Source: Candidatus Falkowbacteria bacterium CG10_big_fil_rev_8_21_14_0_10_39_11 (GTDB taxonomy: Bacteria; Patescibacteriota; Patescibacteriia; UBA11705). Taken from it: a DNA stretch of 54,594 nt. Position numbers and translations under genes: made by a program. The notes beneath the pieces are model-generated. The model was not told the DNA's origin. It worked only from the letters and a program-made list of their open reading frames with translations, and did not search any database. Each line of letters opens with the position of its first letter. The first letter of the stretch is position 1. The stretch lies in NCBI GenBank assembly GCA_002773615.1, contig PFAP01000002.1, positions 1-54,594 on the forward strand, written 5' to 3'. Shown here piece after piece: positions 14,420 through 31,483 of this stretch.

Positions 14420-17400
14420 ATGGTAAAGCAAAGCAAAAACCAGTTTAGGATTTTTACAACAGTTTTGATGCTGGCTACATTAATTTGGACGGCTGGTGTT
14501 GGTGGCTATTTATTGTTAAATCCATATAATGTCTCAGCTGGAGACTCCCCGATTGTTTTTAGTGAGGTTGAAGTCTCTCCAGGAATTTCTGGTACCAATT
14601 TGTTCACCTCTGATTCATCTTTTGAGTCTTGGGCCGATTCAACCATCCCTGAGCCGTTTGTTGATATGAATGGAAATTCAATACGTGACGAGGATGAGCC
14701 GTATTGTGATTTGGATTCCGGTGGTACACATACAACTTACTCGCAGGCATTACCTAATTCTGCTGATATTTTAGGCTTCTCTTTTGCCTGTGGCGGAAGT
14801 GTTACTCAAGAGACTACAGATGTTTATGATGGAAGTTCAGCTATCCGAATCAATACGGGTGATGGTGAAATGTGGACTGTTTATCCTAATGAAACAACGT
14901 CAATATCAAATTTAACTCAATATACGGTCTCATTTTATGCCAAGGGTTTGGTTGGCGGTGAAAAAATTTATTTGATGTTTGAGCCAACCGGTTTGGATGC
15001 TTCTGAGTACAGCTGGAATTTTGTCACTGAGTCTTCGGCCGTATATGAGGGGTTTATCACTGAAGAGACATCGAAAGTTTATGTGTTGACTGATAGTTGG
15101 GCTCGGTATACATACACCTTTACATCTGATCTTGATGGGACCGCATCGATTGGGTTTGTCGCTGGTGGTACGGGTGATGAGCCGGCTGTATTTATGGGCA
15201 GTGGTGCAAATCAAGTTATGTTGATAGATGCTGTTCAGTTTGAGGCAGATTCTACAGCCTCTTCTTATAACACCGGCGGGTCGGCTGGGTCAAATTTTGT
15301 TGAATTGTACAATCGGGGTGGTGGGGATATTGATGTTGATGGTTACACTGTTGAATATAAATTTGGGGCTGGTGACTGGGCTACTTTTGGAGCTGTTTCT
15401 GGTTCAAATACCTACTCAGGCGGTTACTTTTTCAATTTCAAAGCGTCCGGCGGAGATGCTGGGATCACTGATGAGTCAACATTTGACTCTGCTTTTTTAA
15501 CAAATTCAAATTCAATTGATGGATTGTCTTTACGATTATGCTCAAATGGTGCAGATTGCGCTAATACGATATTGGATACAGTTGGTTTTGGTTCTACTGC
15601 AACTGCATATGAGGGTGTGACGAAGGATGTGACCGGTTGGTCTCAGTCAAAGAGTTTTGAACGTAAGGCTTTATTTGATTCAACGGCTGCAACTATGGCT
15701 TCTGGTGGTAGTGATGAGCCGGCTGGAAACAGTTTTGATTCAGATAATAATAATTGGGATTTTGTGTTAAGAACCACACCTGAGCCTCAAGTCAAAAGCA
15801 GTACCCGTGAAGTTTTTGCAGACAATGTGGTTTTTGAGGATGTTAATCCGTATATTTATCATGAGCCGGTAGTCCAGGCTGATGACAATGGAGATTTGTA
15901 TTTATTCGCCGGTATTTTTGATGATAGTGATATTGCTACTACTGGTGTAAAAATATATTATCGAGTTGGAGACTCAGGATCTTTCACCGCAGCTAATTCA
16001 ACCAAAACAGTTACAGCTACTCCAGATATTACCAGTAGTGATTATTACGCCTTTATTATTCCTCAGGCTGATTTACAGGCAGCGGTTGCTGATGAGGGTG
16101 AGATTCAATATTATCTGGAGGCGAATGACGGCGTTTATACCACCACTATGCCTGATTATAATCCAACTTCATATCCTTTAAGTATTAATGTAACTGGTAC
16201 ATATACTGGAGCAAATGGTTTCTCCGGTACGGTCACGGATACGGCTAGTGCTGCTATTAATGGAGCTCTGGTTTTTATTAATGGGACTGGTTTTTTTACC
16301 TCGACCGATGCTAGTGGAAATTATAGCTTTGCATCACTCCCCTCTTCATATCAAGCCAGTGGATCATATCGAGTAACAGCGGTAATCTCTAATAGAATGG
16401 ATAGTGAATATATCGCTTATGATGGAGATACTACCGTTAATATCACTTTACCTACAGATTTTGGAAATTTTTCAGGTGGTGACAAAGAGGCTCCATTTGT
16501 TTCGTATACATCCCCTTTTGATGGTATGTACGGTATGCCGATTAATATTTGTGATCCAAATGATTCACTTCCTCCGGGAGTCGAGTTTTGTTCTCCGATT
16601 ATGGTTGGATTTTCAGAATCAATGAATTCCAGTACTGTAAATAACACTAATGTTACGGTTTATAATTGGGCAACTTCATCAAATCTCGATAATTTGACAA
16701 TTGAGGCAAATGGTAGTGACAGTGAATTTATTATTTATAGCACGACTCCCCTAGCTCCGAATACAACATATACAGTTTCTCTGGGTACGGGTGTTAAAGA
16801 TCATGCCAGCAATGCGTTGGGAGGAAATATGTCAGATGGAACGCATGAATTTACTTTTACAACAGAAGGGACTGAGTTTACCGGTGAGGGAGACCAGGAA
16901 TTTGGCAGCGGTGCTTTTCAGCCGCCATTTGTTCGAACAGTATCTCCAAATTTAGGTGGAAGTAATATTGCATTAAATGCGAAGTTGGTTGTTGATTTTG
17001 TTACTTCGGTAGACGTCTCGGAAACTAATTTAGCAAGAATTAAATTGTATGATGGCGACGATGAGATAAGTGTAACGCATACATATAGCACTGATAATCA
17101 ACGAGTATTTTTACAGCCATCGACTACATTAACGGCAAACACCGAATATGAAATTCAAGTTGCGGGTTCTTTTACTAGCAGTATGGGAGTTAGTCTTGGT
17201 GACCCTGGTCAATCTCAAAATTCCGATAATTATGTTTTCTTTGCATCGGAGTTTAAAACTGGAGCTACTTCTGATACCGTTGGACCTAAGGTGATGGGAC
17301 ATATTCCGGCATCTGGTGAAACAAGTGTAGCTGTTGGACTTTCTGCTGTTGAGATTGCGGTTAATGAATCATTGGATTCTTCTACAGTTAATACCACGAA

Positions 17401-20400
17401 TGTAAAATTAAAGAGAGGTAGTACTGTGGTGGGGGCTGAGGTGGTTTATAAGGAAACGGCAAAGGCAATCAGAATTTTGCCAAGTTCAGCTCTTCAAGCA
17501 AATACATCCTACACCGTTACTGTTGGTGTGGGTGTGACGGATATAGTCGGTAATGCATTTAATCAAGATGAAGACGCTTCAAATGGTGAGGCGTTGGAAG
17601 ATGTGTACGTATTTCAGTTTACGACAATGTCCACGATTGAATCTACCGCTCCTACAGTTATGGATGCCAGATGTGATGATTATCAATGTGTAATTACGTA
17701 CAGTGAATCCATGAATCATGTAAAGCAGATAAATACTGAAGATTGGACTGATGCTGTGGGTAAATGGGAAACAAGTGTGTTAAATAAAACTAATTATAAT
17801 ATTTCTGTCGATACCGGGGGCGGGCTGGCTTCGGCTGATCTTTCATCGGTTTTGTTATCTTATGACGGATATACAAACACTGTATCAATTAAAAATTTGA
17901 ATTTGTTAAGTGGTGTGGCCAATCCTGTCGGACAGCAAATGCCATATACCGTTACGGTTTATAGTTCGGTTGAGGCTGGGAAAGATGGTGTTCGGGATGT
18001 AGTTGGAAATGCTTTGGCTGCAAATGCTGTTTATGGTGGAAGTGTGGAGCTGAGTTCGGCAACTGGTGGTTTCTTTGGCCCTGATGCTGATGGTTTTGGG
18101 TCAGATGGTCCAGGAGATTTTGGTATGCATGATGCTGCAACCATGGGTGAAAAACCAATCGGTGTTTGGCCAATGAACGGTTTGGTCGGTTCAACGACTC
18201 ATTATTTTGTTGACCTTCCAGTTACTTCCGTTGTCCCAAATGGGGGGATTATCACGATGCTGTTTCCAAGTGGTTTCAACGTTGCCAATGCAGCAATAGA
18301 TTCAAATAGTCCAATGAATAAAGATGTTTCAGCCGGCTCGGGAAATGTTACCTTGAATTGTAGTGGTGATGCGGCTACTCGTTTGATAACGTGTACAGTT
18401 ACTGGAGCAACCAACACCAATGATTATTTGAGCTTTGAATTGAAAGGAATTGTAAATTCAAATATACCTAAAGATTTTAATACATCTGGTTATACGGTTG
18501 AGGTAAAAACAAAAAATGGTTCAACTTTACTGGAATCATTTACCACTATGCCATTTTTTATCACAGCTGGTGGAAATAATAGTATAACGTTGAATGTTTA
18601 TGCCGGAGCCAAGGTTGATGCGACAACCGGAAGTGTTGATGTTGATGGGACAACAATGAATTTGTTTGTTGGATCACCTATGACCGGTCCTTTGGATCAG
18701 ACTGTGACCTTTACGAACGGATATGCCACCGCAACTATCAATAATCTGCCTTCAGGTGAATATTTTGCATTTACCGAGCCGTCAGTTACATTGGGAGCCA
18801 GTGATTATTCCGGGATAATGCCAGAGCCTATTCACTTGAACTCATCAGTTAGCAAAGATTTGATTTTAAGTCGGATGGATGAATCATCGGCGGCAGCTTT
18901 GACGGTTTTGCTTACCGGAGATTTTGGAGCTGATGAAGATGTGGATATTTTTGCCGGTCATCCAAAGGGTTTTGTTGTCAAGACGATTGAAAATGTTGGT
19001 TCGGTTGTAAATCAACCTTATACAGTATATTTACCTTACAATGGTGACTGGTTCGTTGGAATGGGACCGTCTATGTCAAAGGGTGCAGTGGCGACGACTA
19101 TCGCTATGCCTGACTGGATGCCTCCAAAAGATAAAATGCTCAAAGTCACTGGGGTTGGAGAGTCGGTGCAAATAAAAAATATTGAAACACAAGGTGATGT
19201 AACCAGCAGTGGAGTTTCATTTGCCATATCTCAAGCGAATTATCAAATTAATGGAACTGTTGTTGATGGTTCAAATAATGTTATTGCCAATGCAGAGGTT
19301 TGGGCTTATCAACCGATGGGGTTTGGTGGAAGCGGTAATTTTACTCGGACTGGGTCAGATGGAACATTTACTCTAAAGATTGCCGAGTATGGAGTCTACA
19401 AAGTAGGTGCTTTTTTGCCAGGAATGCCAGAGTCACCTGAACTTTCAATCAATGTAAAGGCCAATTCAGCAGAAGTTGATGGAAATGCAACCTCAGATAT
19501 TTATCGTGGAGGTACTTTGGTCACTGCTGGTAATCCGTTTAAATTAAAATTATTAAAAGCTGATTATACGATTTCGGGTAAGGTTAAGGATGCAAATGCA
19601 AATGCTATTCAATATGCACCAGTTTGGGCTGAAGAAACAACGACTAAACAGCTAGTTCATGCTGGTACCGATTCCGGTGGTAGTTACGTGTTATATGTGG
19701 GGGCTGGAACTTGGTTGGTAAAATCAGAAGCACCATTTGGATCTGATGCCTGTGGTGGTATAAGTAAGACGGTGACGGTTGTAGATGGCTCGAAAACGGG
19801 ACAAAATTTGGAGCCAACAGCTGGGACGTGTTATACCCTGAGCGGTACGATTTCAATTGGTGGAACTCTTCAAACAAATGCGCCTGTATTTGTTGATGGT
19901 TGGACTGGTGATTTGAATACCGGCTATCCAAATGGAATCTTTAAGGATGCAAAGACAAATAGTGCCGGTCAGTTTTCAGTCAAGGTAGGAAATGGTACAT
20001 ATCGAGTCGGAACATGGACTTCTGATTTTGGTGAACGTGCGATTCTTGTCTCGATAAGTGGTGCAGATTCATCAGGAAATGACATTACGGTGACTAGTGA
20101 TAATTTGAAAACTTTAACGATTGATTTTACTGGGGGGCTATCTTCGATGACCGGTTTTCTGGAAGCAAAAAAAATAAACACTTCTGATCGACGCGGGAAA
20201 CCGGTAAGTAATTTGGCAGCCTCAGAAACAATGCAGTTAGAATCGGGTATGTATAAAGTTTTTTTACATGTTGATGGTGTTGGAGATTTCAATAATGCGA
20301 GTGTCGATTTGTCTTCTGATGCTTCAGTGGTTTTTGACATTTCATCTGTTTCATTAAATACTCTTACTGGAACGGTTGAGGATACCGATGGTACGGCGGT

Positions 20401-22063
20401 GCCAAATGCTTGGGTTTGGGTACATGATCCAAACACTGATTATCATAATGGTGTGGCAACGGGTTCGGATGGTACTTATTCAATGTCGGTTAAATCTGGT
20501 ACTGGGTTTAAGATTGGTGTTGATAAACCGAATTATGTATCCCCGGCCCCCCATAATATCAATATTTCCGGAACTGCAAGTTACGATTTTACGAATAATA
20601 TGGGATTGAGTGCGACTCAATATATAATTTCAGGTACGGCTACGGGAACAAATTTGGCTGATGGATTTATTTGGGCTGAAAGTGCGACTGAAGGCTGGTC
20701 TGGTAGCCCAATTGATATTGATGGTACTTTTTCGTTGCCGGTTTCAGATGGTACCTGGACATTGAAAGGTGTGGCGGCTTTGCATGCAGAGACCACCTAT
20801 GGCAGTCCAATTGTCATTGACGGTGCAAGTCAAACCGGAATTTCATTTGCATTGACTTCGGATGTAACCAAATCGGTAAAATCAGCAGTAAATTCAATTA
20901 CGCCATCTGTTGGTGGGGTGATTCAAGACAATGATGTCGGGGCCAAAGTGGTGGTTCCACCAAACGCTTTGGGTAGTGGTTCAAGTGCCGGTAATATGAC
21001 AATGGCAAAATCCTATACGGCTCCATCCACCAACGCATATGCTCCATTGGAAGGGCAATCAATTAATATAAGTGTTACAGACAATAATGGACAACCAATT
21101 ACAAATTTGAACGATCAAGTTGAGCTAACTTTGGATTATTCGGTTGACAATTTGCCTGCTGGGGTAGTAGAAGATGATTTGGTCCCAGCGTATTGGGATG
21201 GTACGACAAATCAATGGATTCCAATTACTGGAGTTCAAGATTCAGATGATAATTCTTTTACCGCACAAACAGATCACTTTACTATTTTTGGTGTGGTTTA
21301 TTCCCCATTGGTATCATCATCAAGTGCAGCTACAAACAGTAGTCGTTCGAGTCAGTTGGCTGAGGAAGGCCGGGTTGAATCAGATGTAACAGGAACAACA
21401 GATTCGATCGAAATTATTGATGAAGCTACTGATTCTGCTGATGAAGAAACCGTAAATGAGGCTACTGATGAAATTACTGATTCTGTTGATGAATTAGAAA
21501 CTGTGACGGAAGTTGTTGAAGAAGTAGTCGAGGATACAACTCGGTATGTCCCTATTTTGCCAACGACTAGAGATTTGGATGGTGAAAAGGATGCGATCTC
21601 AAAATATGTTGGTTTGGAAAACAGGTTGCCAGCTGGTGATGACTGGAAGGTGGTGCAATTTATTACTTATGGCGGTGCCAGTGAGACTCAAAATCTCACC
21701 GATCGTGAAAGAGTTGGGTTGTTGGTAGATTTTAAAGATATGTATGGTCGAGTACCAAGCTCTGATATAGATTGGAAAGATCTTAATCTAATTGCACAGG
21801 GTGAGCAACCAACTCGGATTATACCGCGAGAAGCAGACGCTATTAGAGATTTTATGGATGTTTACGGTCGTTTAGTTAATTTTAAGAGTCAAGTTGAAGA
21901 AAAATTTGTTCACATGGTTGCCTATCGATACCGAGTTGAGTCTAGAGATTTGAACAAGGAAAATACAGCTTTGGGTATATTCTCAAATGCATATGGTTAC
22001 TTGCCAAATAGTGCACATCTTTGGTCAGTGCTTCGTGCAATTGCCTATTCGGGGGTGAAATAA
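14420..22063 (+). CDS. giant multidomain surface protein (2547 aa): lamin-tail-like, SbsA-type Ig-like, carboxypeptidase-regulatory-like repeats, C-terminal LP-DW-AYG repeat domain
   Basis: signal peptide; NFVELYNRGGGDIDVDGYTVEYK; repeated PLAPNTTYTVSLGTGVKDHASNALGG; repeated GTVVDGSNNVIANAEVWAY-type units. Confidence 0.9.
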   Translation: MVKQSKNQFRIFTTVLMLATLIWTAGVGGYLLLNPYNVSAGDSPIVFSEVEVSPGISGTNLFTSDSSFESWADSTIPEPFVDMNGNSIRDEDEPYCDLDSGGTHTTYSQALPNSADILGFSFACGGSVTQETTDVYDGSSAIRINTGDGEMWTVYPNETTSISNLTQYTVSFYAKGLVGGEKIYLMFEPTGLDASEYSWNFVTESSAVYEGFITEETSKVYVLTDSWARYTYTFTSDLDGTASIGFVAGGTGDEPAVFMGSGANQVMLIDAVQFEADSTASSYNTGGSAGSNFVELYNRGGGDIDVDGYTVEYKFGAGDWATFGAVSGSNTYSGGYFFNFKASGGDAGITDESTFDSAFLTNSNSIDGLSLRLCSNGADCANTILDTVGFGSTATAYEGVTKDVTGWSQSKSFERKALFDSTAATMASGGSDEPAGNSFDSDNNNWDFVLRTTPEPQVKSSTREVFADNVVFEDVNPYIYHEPVVQADDNGDLYLFAGIFDDSDIATTGVKIYYRVGDSGSFTAANSTKTVTATPDITSSDYYAFIIPQADLQAAVADEGEIQYYLEANDGVYTTTMPDYNPTSYPLSINVTGTYTGANGFSGTVTDTASAAINGALVFINGTGFFTSTDASGNYSFASLPSSYQASGSYRVTAVISNRMDSEYIAYDGDTTVNITLPTDFGNFSGGDKEAPFVSYTSPFDGMYGMPINICDPNDSLPPGVEFCSPIMVGFSESMNSSTVNNTNVTVYNWATSSNLDNLTIEANGSDSEFIIYSTTPLAPNTTYTVSLGTGVKDHASNALGGNMSDGTHEFTFTTEGTEFTGEGDQEFGSGAFQPPFVRTVSPNLGGSNIALNAKLVVDFVTSVDVSETNLARIKLYDGDDEISVTHTYSTDNQRVFLQPSTTLTANTEYEIQVAGSFTSSMGVSLGDPGQSQNSDNYVFFASEFKTGATSDTVGPKVMGHIPASGETSVAVGLSAVEIAVNESLDSSTVNTTNVKLKRGSTVVGAEVVYKETAKAIRILPSSALQANTSYTVTVGVGVTDIVGNAFNQDEDASNGEALEDVYVFQFTTMSTIESTAPTVMDARCDDYQCVITYSESMNHVKQINTEDWTDAVGKWETSVLNKTNYNISVDTGGGLASADLSSVLLSYDGYTNTVSIKNLNLLSGVANPVGQQMPYTVTVYSSVEAGKDGVRDVVGNALAANAVYGGSVELSSATGGFFGPDADGFGSDGPGDFGMHDAATMGEKPIGVWPMNGLVGSTTHYFVDLPVTSVVPNGGIITMLFPSGFNVANAAIDSNSPMNKDVSAGSGNVTLNCSGDAATRLITCTVTGATNTNDYLSFELKGIVNSNIPKDFNTSGYTVEVKTKNGSTLLESFTTMPFFITAGGNNSITLNVYAGAKVDATTGSVDVDGTTMNLFVGSPMTGPLDQTVTFTNGYATATINNLPSGEYFAFTEPSVTLGASDYSGIMPEPIHLNSSVSKDLILSRMDESSAAALTVLLTGDFGADEDVDIFAGHPKGFVVKTIENVGSVVNQPYTVYLPYNGDWFVGMGPSMSKGAVATTIAMPDWMPPKDKMLKVTGVGESVQIKNIETQGDVTSSGVSFAISQANYQINGTVVDGSNNVIANAEVWAYQPMGFGGSGNFTRTGSDGTFTLKIAEYGVYKVGAFLPGMPESPELSINVKANSAEVDGNATSDIYRGGTLVTAGNPFKLKLLKADYTISGKVKDANANAIQYAPVWAEETTTKQLVHAGTDSGGSYVLYVGAGTWLVKSEAPFGSDACGGISKTVTVVDGSKTGQNLEPTAGTCYTLSGTISIGGTLQTNAPVFVDGWTGDLNTGYPNGIFKDAKTNSAGQFSVKVGNGTYRVGTWTSDFGERAILVSISGADSSGNDITVTSDNLKTLTIDFTGGLSSMTGFLEAKKINTSDRRGKPVSNLAASETMQLESGMYKVFLHVDGVGDFNNASVDLSSDASVVFDISSVSLNTLTGTVEDTDGTAVPNAWVWVHDPNTDYHNGVATGSDGTYSMSVKSGTGFKIGVDKPNYVSPAPHNINISGTASYDFTNNMGLSATQYIISGTATGTNLADGFIWAESATEGWSGSPIDIDGTFSLPVSDGTWTLKGVAALHAETTYGSPIVIDGASQTGISFALTSDVTKSVKSAVNSITPSVGGVIQDNDVGAKVVVPPNALGSGSSAGNMTMAKSYTAPSTNAYAPLEGQSINISVTDNNGQPITNLNDQVELTLDYSVDNLPAGVVEDDLVPAYWDGTTNQWIPITGVQDSDDNSFTAQTDHFTIFGVVYSPLVSSSSAATNSSRSSQLAEEGRVESDVTGTTDSIEIIDEATDSADEETVNEATDEITDSVDELETVTEVVEEVVEDTTRYVPILPTTRDLDGEKDAISKYVGLENRLPAGDDWKVVQFITYGGASETQNLTDRERVGLLVDFKDMYGRVPSSDIDWKDLNLIAQGEQPTRIIPREADAIRDFMDVYGRLVNFKSQVEEKFVHMVAYRYRVESRDLNKENTALGIFSNAYGYLPNSAHLWSVLRAIAYSGVK

Positions 22064-26500: not shown

Positions 26501-26624
26501 TACTTAGCACTTATTCATATACATATTTATATCACAACTATCAAGTTTAGTGAAGTATTTCTAAAATGGTGACGTCTTTAAGTGCCTTAAATTAGCTATT
26601 TTTGTAAAATTGTGTTAACTGGTA

Positions 26625-26653
26625 TTGACACTATTGAAAAACTATGCTATAAT
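26625..26653 (+). promoter_or_regulatory. perfect consensus promoter TTGACA-17-TATAAT (distal)
   Basis: TTGACA 26625-26630, TATAAT 26648-26653. Confidence 0.85.
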
Positions 26654-26769
26654 GGTTTATTAAGCTGAGAAATTTGTGAGTTCATTATAAGACATCTGGA
26701 TCATTTTGTTGAGGCAACGCCTCTCTATAGTATATAGCTTGTCGTTATATTATATAGATATTTTTAGCC

Positions 26770-26798
26770 TTGACAAAATAATTTAAGTGTGTTATAAT
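26770..26798 (+). promoter_or_regulatory. perfect consensus promoter TTGACA-17-TATAAT (proximal)
   Basis: TTGACA 26770-26775, TATAAT 26793-26798. Confidence 0.9.
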
Positions 26799-26804
26799 AT
26801 TCAC

Positions 26805-27095
26805 ATGATCATTAAAATGTGAGGTAATTTAAAGCAACAACTCTTATTGAATTTGCACATTGTCATTCACGGGTTTAACCCGGGAATTTACAAGGTCAAA
26901 TTCAATGAGGGTTGTGAGATAGTGTCTCCTACCCTGTAGCGTCGCGAAAGGTTCGGCTCGGATTCGTTGATTCACTCTGGTCCTAACATAAACAGGACCT
27001 TTGGGCTATTGCAGCCGACAAACGTGAAATCAACTTTTCCATGGCCGGACCGATCACCTTTCGAATGGGGTTAAATCCCCTTTATTGGAGGATCT
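26805..27095 (+). ncRNA. structured 5' leader RNA (candidate cis-regulatory RNA)
   Basis: 18-bp stem 26838-26855/26897-26914 enclosing CGGG/CCCG hairpin; stem GTTGATTCAC/GTGAAATCAAC (26966-26975/27024-27034) enclosing GGTCCT/AGGACC and GGCT/AGCC hairpins; GGGG/CCCC hairpin just upstream of the SD. Confidence 0.7.
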
Positions 27096-27097
27096 AC

Positions 27098-28219
27098 ATG
27101 TCCAACGTGAAGCAGGCCACCGAGATTCAGTTCTCCTACCCGACGTCGATTCAGGCTCTCGTGGCCGAAAACGGAAGCGCGTTCAATCCGAACGCGCTCG
27201 TCCAGTCGGAACTGTTCGTGACCGCGGGCCAGACGCAGGCGCCGCGACCGTTCCAAGCGCGCTATGCGCGCGTGCTGGTCGACAGCGGGCGTCTGTTCAA
27301 CGCGAACGACTCCGGAGTGGTGCTCCGGAGCGTTGGCGCGGTCAACATGAAACTGAGAGCGGCCGGGAAGCCCCTGGTCGACGGCAGTTTCATTCCGCTC
27401 GCCGAGGCGCTCGGCATTCGCCGGGCCCGTGACCAGTACGGTGACGACCTCGAGTCGCTGCTCATCAGCGACGACGAGAAGGTCATCCTGACCGGAGAGG
27501 AGGTCCGTGACCTGGACCTCGATCCCATCACGCTCCAGGAGCGTATGGGTTCCGGTGCCGGAGTGATGGATTTGGAGCGTGTCGCCCGCTGGGAACAGCG
27601 GATGCGCCTCTACGAGGCCGCGATCGAGGCGAACTCGGCGATCTTCGCCGAGCTCAAGGGCAACATCGAACAGGACACGCGGAACGGATGGAGTGAGGCG
27701 ATCTGCCAGACCACCGAGGCGTGGCTCAAGTTCGTGGAAGCCATGAACGCCTTCGCGGAGGAGATGGGCTTCAAGTGGGACGGTACGCCGGCCCCGCCGA
27801 CCCCCCCCGCCTTCCCGCTCGCCGTCCTTCGCATCTACGCGAGGGGCAAGGGCCTCCGGTTCGTCCTTCTCGTCCCGGACAATCGCCACAAGGCGGCGGC
27901 GATGATGAAGTGGAGCGAGCAGATGGAGCACGCTCGCGAGCCGGAGAACTATCGGGACTTCACCGACAAGGTTCTGGCTCCCCTGAACATCATGCAGGCT
28001 CGCCTGCGTGAGAACGGGGTTCCGCAGGACGCTCCCACCTTCCAGGACAAGGCGGAAGTGCTCACCACGAACTTCCTCAGCGTCGCTGGGGTGTCGCTGG
28101 AAGAGCTGGCCGATCAGTCCCGGGCGCCGCGCGAGGACCGGCCCCGTGGCAAGGGTAAGCGCGGTGACCGTCACTCGCGCAGGTCCCAGGGTCACCAGTG
28201 GGTGCCCAACGCCGACTGA
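27098..28219 (+). CDS. GC-rich orphan protein with basic Arg/Gly-rich C-terminal tail
   Basis: SD TTGGAGG; ORF about two-thirds GC by eye in an AT-rich window; tail RAPREDRPRGKGKRGDRHSRRSQGHQ; no recognised domain. Confidence 0.8.
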   Translation: MSNVKQATEIQFSYPTSIQALVAENGSAFNPNALVQSELFVTAGQTQAPRPFQARYARVLVDSGRLFNANDSGVVLRSVGAVNMKLRAAGKPLVDGSFIPLAEALGIRRARDQYGDDLESLLISDDEKVILTGEEVRDLDLDPITLQERMGSGAGVMDLERVARWEQRMRLYEAAIEANSAIFAELKGNIEQDTRNGWSEAICQTTEAWLKFVEAMNAFAEEMGFKWDGTPAPPTPPAFPLAVLRIYARGKGLRFVLLVPDNRHKAAAMMKWSEQMEHAREPENYRDFTDKVLAPLNIMQARLRENGVPQDAPTFQDKAEVLTTNFLSVAGVSLEELADQSRAPREDRPRGKGKRGDRHSRRSQGHQWVPNAD

Positions 28220-28289
28220 GACCGCTGAGTTTGAGACGACCTCACATTCCCCGTGATCCTTCCGCCTCTTCCGAGGCAAGAACGAAAAT

Positions 28290-28320
28290 AAGATCCAAGC
28301 AACCGCTTGGATCTTTTCCC
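28290..28320 (+). terminator. strong intrinsic terminator
   Basis: AAGATCCAAGC-aacc-GCTTGGATCTT then TTCCCTTTT. Confidence 0.85.
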
Positions 28321-28552: not shown

Positions 28553-29146
28553 ATGTCTAAAGAAAAATGTGAGCCTGGTCGTTTTTTTAGAGTCACCGAT
28601 GACTTCTGGCGGGATCTACTATCGAGACAAATGAAGTTCCACCAAGGTGTTGATGGCTTTGATATCGCCGAAATTTTTTCGGCTCGAGACAGACGCCTGG
28701 TGTTCATGGTTCCTAGATTGTCGAGCGACATTGGCGCCATTGATATGAAGCTGGTGCAAAGTATTGTGTCAAGTCCAAGTCAGTGTCAGGACTTTGATCG
28801 TATTCCTTTCTCTGTGCAAATTTTGAAAACGGTTGGGTTGGTTTATTTCGTGCAGATGACGGTTGATGATTTGAAGGTTGCGGTATTAATTGCAGTGCCC
28901 TATTCCAAATATAGCCAGGAATATGATGGATATATTGGTTTTATTAAATTGGATAAGGTCAAGTGGTCGGATGTAGGGAAAATTGAATTTGATTCTGATG
29001 ACCATTCTATGGTTTATCGAGATTATGTGTCTGGTGATATGGAAATATGTCTGATGGTCAAGAAAGAACACAAGGACACTAGAATCTCCTTGTCACCATC
29101 CATTAGCATGAGTACAGATGGCCGGAGATTTATTCGAGTATCATAA
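28553..29146 (+). CDS. hypothetical protein
   Basis: SD GGAGGTG; promoter TTGACT-17-TATGAT; terminator ACAGACT/AGTCTGT-T5. Confidence 0.75.
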   Translation: MSKEKCEPGRFFRVTDDFWRDLLSRQMKFHQGVDGFDIAEIFSARDRRLVFMVPRLSSDIGAIDMKLVQSIVSSPSQCQDFDRIPFSVQILKTVGLVYFVQMTVDDLKVAVLIAVPYSKYSQEYDGYIGFIKLDKVKWSDVGKIEFDSDDHSMVYRDYVSGDMEICLMVKKEHKDTRISLSPSISMSTDGRRFIRVS

Positions 29147-31455: not shown

Positions 31456-31483
31456 TTGACATGGTCTGGTATTGGGTTATAAT
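31456..31483 (+). promoter_or_regulatory. clpB promoter TTGACA-16-TATAAT
   Basis: TTGACA 31456-31461, TATAAT 31478-31483. Confidence 0.85.

Follow-up and report, generated by a model that had tools for sequence, protein, structure and literature searches.

A GC-rich single-copy gene at a fixed chromosomal site in one order of Patescibacteria, with anti-adapted codons and, in most members, excess folding of the coding RNA

The 54,594-nucleotide stretch of contig PFAP01000002.1 from Candidatus Falkowbacteria bacterium CG10_big_fil_rev_8_21_14_0_10_39_11 (assembly GCA_002773615.1, 1.1-Mb genome, here G000), referred to below as the window, contains a GC-rich orphan gene in the chromosomal slot between gltX and the NUDIX/WecG/clpB genes. 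The transcription unit of this slot gene, its positional conservation, the rate of change of its protein, its anti-adapted codons and the excess folding of its coding region were established by sequence analysis. Taken as a whole, these features are best explained by a strongly transcribed, folded and probably long-lived RNA under selection, an explanation that we hold to be about evenly balanced between right and wrong.

Using gltX and clpB as anchors, the interval was read in other members of the order, with one genome per species and synteny viewed around the anchors only. All ten readable genomes (G000, G001, G002, G003, G004, G006, G007, G008, G009 and G010) carry in the slot a GC-rich orphan gene that is divergent from gltX and upstream of NUDIX/WecG/clpB; in G005 the interval is broken by contig ends. 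The open reading frame (ORF) lies immediately 3' of a strong promoter in most of these genomes, and its GC content at third codon positions (GC3) ranges from 0.62 (G009) to 0.97 (G002), versus genome backgrounds of about 0.25–0.57. That the slot is order-wide is regarded as nearly certain. Outside the order, gltX often neighbours clpB as well, yet no GC-rich gene was found within the fully read, inspected intervals, a result that covers that interval only. On this comparison, the unit is an innovation of one order at the gltX-clpB position. The gene is single-copy, with one match in its own genome. A core-profile search of 389 genomes of the class returned members of the order and one match judged false, which overlaps another gene, apparently prfB. 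A profile of the window protein found no match but itself over 389 genomes of the phylum, and among the GTDB r220 contigs searched, the congener G001 (Ca. Falkowbacteria UBA11705, DOZJ01000003.1) alone matched. An initial annotation, made from the letters of the window, had pointed to related genomes as the place to look for the same leader and ORF. Both were found in G001, with the leader conserved, and the matching place holds both promoters with the two boxes between them, together with the leader, an ORF whose GC3 is ~0.95–0.97 and the terminator.

The coding region is far richer in GC than its surroundings, as initially described. The window ORF has a GC content of 0.655 and a GC3 of 0.853, compared with a GC3 of 0.374 ± 0.059 (maximum 0.594) in 70 further ORFs from the genome. 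A sharp GC onset at the start codon between AT-rich flanks had also been proposed. The AT-rich flanks were recovered at the promoters (0.22–0.27) and from the terminator onward (0.33), whereas the left edge is a ramp, with the leader at 0.42–0.53, the ORF at 0.55–0.75 and the region just past the stop codon at 0.58. Since GC rises from the leader and falls at the terminator, the raised GC tracks the transcript better than it does the ORF by itself. The codon adaptation index (CAI) is 0.30, versus 0.61 ± 0.05 for the highly expressed genes of the genome, and is the lowest value seen; these highly expressed genes have GC3 values of 0.23–0.45. The slot gene relies on codons that are shunned in the genome's EF-Tu and ribosomal-protein genes, for example CTC, which accounts for 0.52 versus 0.00 of leucine codons. 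A translation-optimised, highly expressed gene was rejected on this basis. Because the codons are opposite to those of the ribosomal proteins, selection on the slot gene is not for translation, and the excess lies in RNA folding; judging from codon usage, the target of selection is not translation speed. The GC-ending codons are readable by the tRNA set of G001. This congener, a 1.3-Mb Patescibacteria genome, encodes 52 distinct tRNA sequences, among them tRNA-Arg(GCG) and many with C34 anticodons.

Folding of the coding region was computed as the mean folding energy of 120-nucleotide windows and compared with shuffles that preserve the protein and the codon counts, and, as a stricter null, the codon-junction dinucleotides as well. 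Under the first null, strong excess folding was observed in G000 (z = -6.7), G003 (-6.8), G004 (-5.6), G002 (-5.4), G010 (-5.0) and G006 (-4.8), with weaker values in G001 (-2.8), G007 (-2.2) and G009 (-1.3), while thirteen control genes ranged from +0.9 to -2.2. The stricter null retained the excess in the same six of nine genes (G000 -5.0, G003 -7.5, G002 -6.5, G010 -6.1, G006 -5.2 and G004 -4.5), and 55 control genes gave a z of -0.29 ± 0.98 with a minimum of -2.2. These six, all with z below -4.4, thus belong among mRNAs selected for strong coding-region folding. The window gene contains nine perfect 7-bp hairpins versus 1.4 expected, and perfect short hairpins are roughly doubled in most slot genes. 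No recurrent hairpin loop sequence was found across the slot genes, and a shared protein-binding hairpin loop was rejected for this reason. The sense excess is clearly above the antisense excess in G002, G004, G006 and G010. As this holds in four genes only, selection at the RNA level is well supported for some slot genes and probable for the rest. Selection for RNA folding as such is considered likely, with good confidence.

The transcription unit (Table 1) is, almost beyond doubt, real. The two perfect promoters of the initial annotation stand exactly as described, and its leader of about 300 nucleotides, Shine-Dalgarno sequence and strong terminator are all present. The ORF was found at its place as well, although it encodes 373 amino acids, the reported 374 counting the stop codon. 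A promoter of the P2 type occurs at the corresponding place in G004, G006, G010 and G008, and a weaker one in G003 and G007. The exact TTGACA-17-TATAAT arrangement is found at three places in the window (P1, P2 and 90–118), versus 0.05 occurrences expected. Strong, constitutive transcription from these near-perfect promoters is probable. Perfect promoter hexamers were also observed elsewhere in the window, at 90–118 with 17-bp spacing and at 31456–31483 with 16-bp spacing, so that consensus promoters are not exclusive to the slot gene. All seven leaders tested were significantly folded (z -2.5 to -7.0), and the window leader gave nothing above the gathering score against the Rfam 15 covariance models. 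Given the conserved and strongly folded leader, a leader-regulated unit is possible.

Table 1. Features of the slot transcription unit and its downstream neighbour (window positions).
Feature	Position	Strand	Remarks
Promoter P1, TTGACA-17-TATAAT, TG before -10	26625..26653	+	exact consensus; kept in G001 save small changes
Conserved box AAGCTGAGAAATT...TATAAGACATCTGGATCATTTTGTTGAGG between P1 and P2	26661..26714	+	alignment with G001
Conserved box TATAGTATATNGCTTGTCGTNATATTATATA upstream of P2	26726..26758	+	alignment with G001
Promoter P2, TTGACA-17-TATAAT	26770..26798	+	exact consensus
5' leader (start approximate)	26805..27097	+	z -6.4 to -7.0 versus dinucleotide shuffles; conserved in G001
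Long leader hairpin CAACAACTCTTATTGAATTTG / CAAATTCAATGAGGGTTGTG	26837..26915	+	kept in G001 with pairing-preserving changes (by eye)
Second large leader hairpin, inner GGTCC/GGACC stem	26947..27063	+	conserved in G001
Shine-Dalgarno sequence TTGGAGG	27086..27092	+	similar sites in relatives
GC-rich slot gene, 373 amino acids and stop	27098..28219	+	GC3 0.853, CAI 0.30; homologue in G001
Region coding the basic C-terminal tail	28096..28216	+	net charge +3, last 40 amino acids
Intrinsic terminator, 11-bp stem	28290..28315	+	relatives: terminator at matching place (by eye)
Downstream gene, ~197 amino acids, normal GC	28553..29146	+	own Shine-Dalgarno sequence GGAGGTG; likely own promoter

The gene downstream of the slot gene also evolves fast (52% identity with G001) and was not recognised as a member of any family; an open frame of ~200 amino acids follows the slot gene in seven of the ten relatives. 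Further upstream, positions 14420–22063 of the window encode a 2547-amino-acid protein that has a signal-like segment at its N terminus and, by eye, many Ig-like/carboxypeptidase-regulatory-like stretches, conserved upstream in the congener. The slot gene of G008 exists as two allele-like versions, ~75% identical, at the ends of two contigs (L040 1–560 and L067 3432–4512), and the versions have an identical stretch of ~135 bp in common; in the L067 version, a tandem duplication of ~70 bp breaks the frame. These paired versions could reflect a strain mixture, recombination or an assembly artefact. In G002, the start of the slot gene sits at the end of contig C7, and the end of contig C6 (L018 13000–14421; also L145) contains runs of N and looks as though DNA from a different organism had been joined to it wrongly in scaffolding. 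Because assemblies break at this locus, the gene is easily overlooked or mistaken for contamination.

The slot protein shares 41% identity between G000 and G001, compared with 86% for ClpB and 75% for GltX, and its nonsynonymous divergence (dN) is 0.59 versus 0.09 for clpB and 0.17 for gltX, with open frames intact. By these measures, the protein is constrained yet fast-evolving. BLAST among the slot proteins related G006, G008 and G010 (E 1e-4 to 4e-14), left G004 and G007 marginal and gave no match for the rest. An apparent common pattern consists of a tryptophan, then P-F/Y, then a beta-hairpin and a helix, and we infer homology of the whole set across genera. The initial annotation recognised no domain, and the searches agreed: no well-known family, which it had named as the opposing outcome, was matched. 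The window protein had no supported match in Pfam, NCBIfam, PHROGs, PADLOC, PDB sequences, phage records or IMG/VR, and those of the relatives had none in Pfam, PHROGs or NCBIfam; one weak PADLOC match (E 0.001) involved a 35-amino-acid stretch of the G007 protein only. The basic tail that it had pointed out was confirmed, and the last 40 residues are net positive in eight of ten slot proteins. No transmembrane segment was found in the slot proteins. The protein seems soluble and usually basic-tailed, with a core of beta-hairpin-plus-helix units, and it probably binds nucleic acid.

Several observations weigh against a selected, folded transcript that encodes such a protein. Under the stricter null, excess folding is weak or absent in three of nine genes (G001 -3.0, G007 -1.8 and G009 -1.1), and the GC3 of the G009 gene is just 0.62. 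For G001 and G007, the weaker signal may reflect a GC3 near saturation, which leaves small synonymous freedom. The antisense strand folds equally well in G000 and G003, which leaves room for a DNA-level cause in these two. The positions of ORF hairpins mostly differ between G000 and G001, so that no specific RNA architecture of the ORF is conserved. The AlphaFold models, built with two or seven sequences, were poor (predicted local distance difference test scores of 40 and 42), and nucleic-acid binding is consequently argued from charge and weak secondary structure alone.

In the explanation that we propose, an order-specific, single-copy unit would have been inserted between gltX and NUDIX/WecG/clpB, and its near-perfect promoters would drive strong transcription of one RNA. 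The leader would open with a long protective hairpin, the G- and C-ending codons would be arranged so that the coding RNA makes many local hairpins, and the strong terminator would close the transcript. High GC would then be a by-product of selection for folded RNA, with GC3 as the means and codon adaptation sacrificed. The likely effect would be an RNA that is unusually nuclease-resistant, long-lived or compact and that encodes a soluble, fast-evolving, usually basic-tailed and probably nucleic-acid-binding protein. We infer the abundance and stability of this transcript, and any biological role, from its sequence features; a role as a stable transcript could go either way. A bolder version, in which the transcript itself would be the working molecule, an abundant folded RNA bound or packaged by its own basic-tailed protein as an order-specific chromosomal ribonucleoprotein particle, possibly with a part in phage defence or in partner-cell contact, is improbable, and a ribonucleoprotein of any such kind would be unlikely at best.

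The most serious rival, which we nevertheless consider unlikely, is an ordinary, very highly expressed protein gene that represents the extreme of general bacterial coding-region folding (translation pacing, accuracy or mRNA protection), with an RNA that has no role of its own. The promoters, Shine-Dalgarno sequence and terminator do resemble those of a high-output protein gene. However, little excess folding was found in the genes for EF-Tu and ribosomal protein L2 from these genomes, ribosomal genes have GC3 values of 0.23–0.54, no gene examined had a lower CAI than the slot gene, and abundant proteins do not usually change so rapidly. The locus might instead be a hotspot of mutation or recombination, in which intense transcription or repeated recombination leads to GC enrichment by biased gene conversion and short palindromes are perfected by template switching; this would also account for the hypervariability. 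In keeping with it, the palindromes of G000 and G003 exceed expectation in strength on both strands, G008 has its two allele-like copies (~75% identical) around an identical stretch of ~135 bp, and the assemblies of G002 and G008 break at the locus. Against it, the promoters, terminators and most leaders at the same locus are far less GC-rich, folding in G002, G004, G006 and G010 is in excess on the sense strand over the antisense strand, and in ten genomes a strong GC3 bias coexists with an intact frame, which is indicative of selection on codons. On this evidence, we regard the hotspot as rather improbable.

We think it very unlikely that the codon usage suits translation elsewhere, the gene or its mRNA being destined to be expressed inside a high-GC partner cell, such as one to which the episymbiont attaches. 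The codons are like those of an ordinary high-GC bacterium, the genome's own preferred codons are avoided, and the promoters and Shine-Dalgarno sequence follow a broad-host consensus. However, expression in a partner cell predicts no folding beyond codon usage, no export route was seen for the slot gene, relatives differ in GC3 (0.62–0.97), and the codons are readable by the congener's own tRNAs. More doubtful still is that the gene was recently acquired by horizontal transfer, from a donor rich in GC, or is a product of chimeric assembly; the composition contrast alone speaks for either. No donor was found in phages or in the 389 phylum genomes, the promoter and terminator are host-like, and the independent assembly of G001 contains this unit too, its leader conserved, which excludes a chimera at the GC boundary. 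A genomic-island gene, expected to be patchy and without a fixed site, was likewise rejected, since the same slot is occupied in every one of the order's ten readable genomes. The initial annotation had read the gene as a complete, strongly expressed unit with foreign or specially selected codons; at the level of sequence features, the unit and the selected codons held up, whereas the foreign origin was contradicted by the fixed slot and by the promoters, leader, ORF and terminator kept in the congener. An overlapping antisense gene as the source of GC richness can practically be dismissed: long antisense ORFs exist (425 codons in the window gene, 419 in G001), but frames equally long arise in synonymous shuffles of eight of nine genes, codon usage accounts for the long frame in most slot genes, and the sense frame is much better conserved than the antisense (E 6e-69 versus 3e-19).

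Structured 5' leaders of the ompA type stabilise mRNA, and the slot leader is similar in that a large hairpin lies close to the 5' end of an mRNA that, from its promoters, would be strongly transcribed. Unlike the ompA type, it is far longer and unrelated in sequence, its folding runs on through the ORF, and its stabilising effect is putative. Single-stranded RNA phages offer a possible analogue of a pervasively folded coding RNA. As in the genome-scale ordered RNA structure of RNA viruses, the slot gene has pervasive coding hairpins of unconserved position and evolves fast; unlike these viruses, it is chromosomal, has bacterial promoters and has no viral relative that we found. To our knowledge, from a search of open papers, there is no known case in which folding selection is focused on a single fast-evolving gene in each genome and runs counter to codon adaptation. 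The lgr genes of Protochlamydia amoebophila are large G+C-rich genes that form a recent multi-copy family with leucine-rich repeats (PMC2216083). The slot gene shares with them the GC richness, the lack of whole-length homologues and an AT-rich, host-associated bacterium, but it has one copy per genome, a fixed site through the order and no recognised repeats. Mid-gene RNA folding above shuffles, achieved by synonymous codon arrangement, is known to be under widespread selection (PMC7063772). Unlike that general trend, the folding described here concerns one gene per genome, with nearly none in 55 others, and an extreme GC3 that runs against codon preference.

Through the order, this gene stays fixed at its site while its protein changes nearly past recognition, and high GC persists, as does excess folding in most members. 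It is a rare case in which selection seems steadier on the coding RNA than on the protein sequence. The slot therefore offers a natural test of the purpose of coding-region RNA folding, with the nearly unstructured neighbouring genes as controls, and the gene may point to an abundant particle, or to a defence function, as yet undescribed in Patescibacteria.
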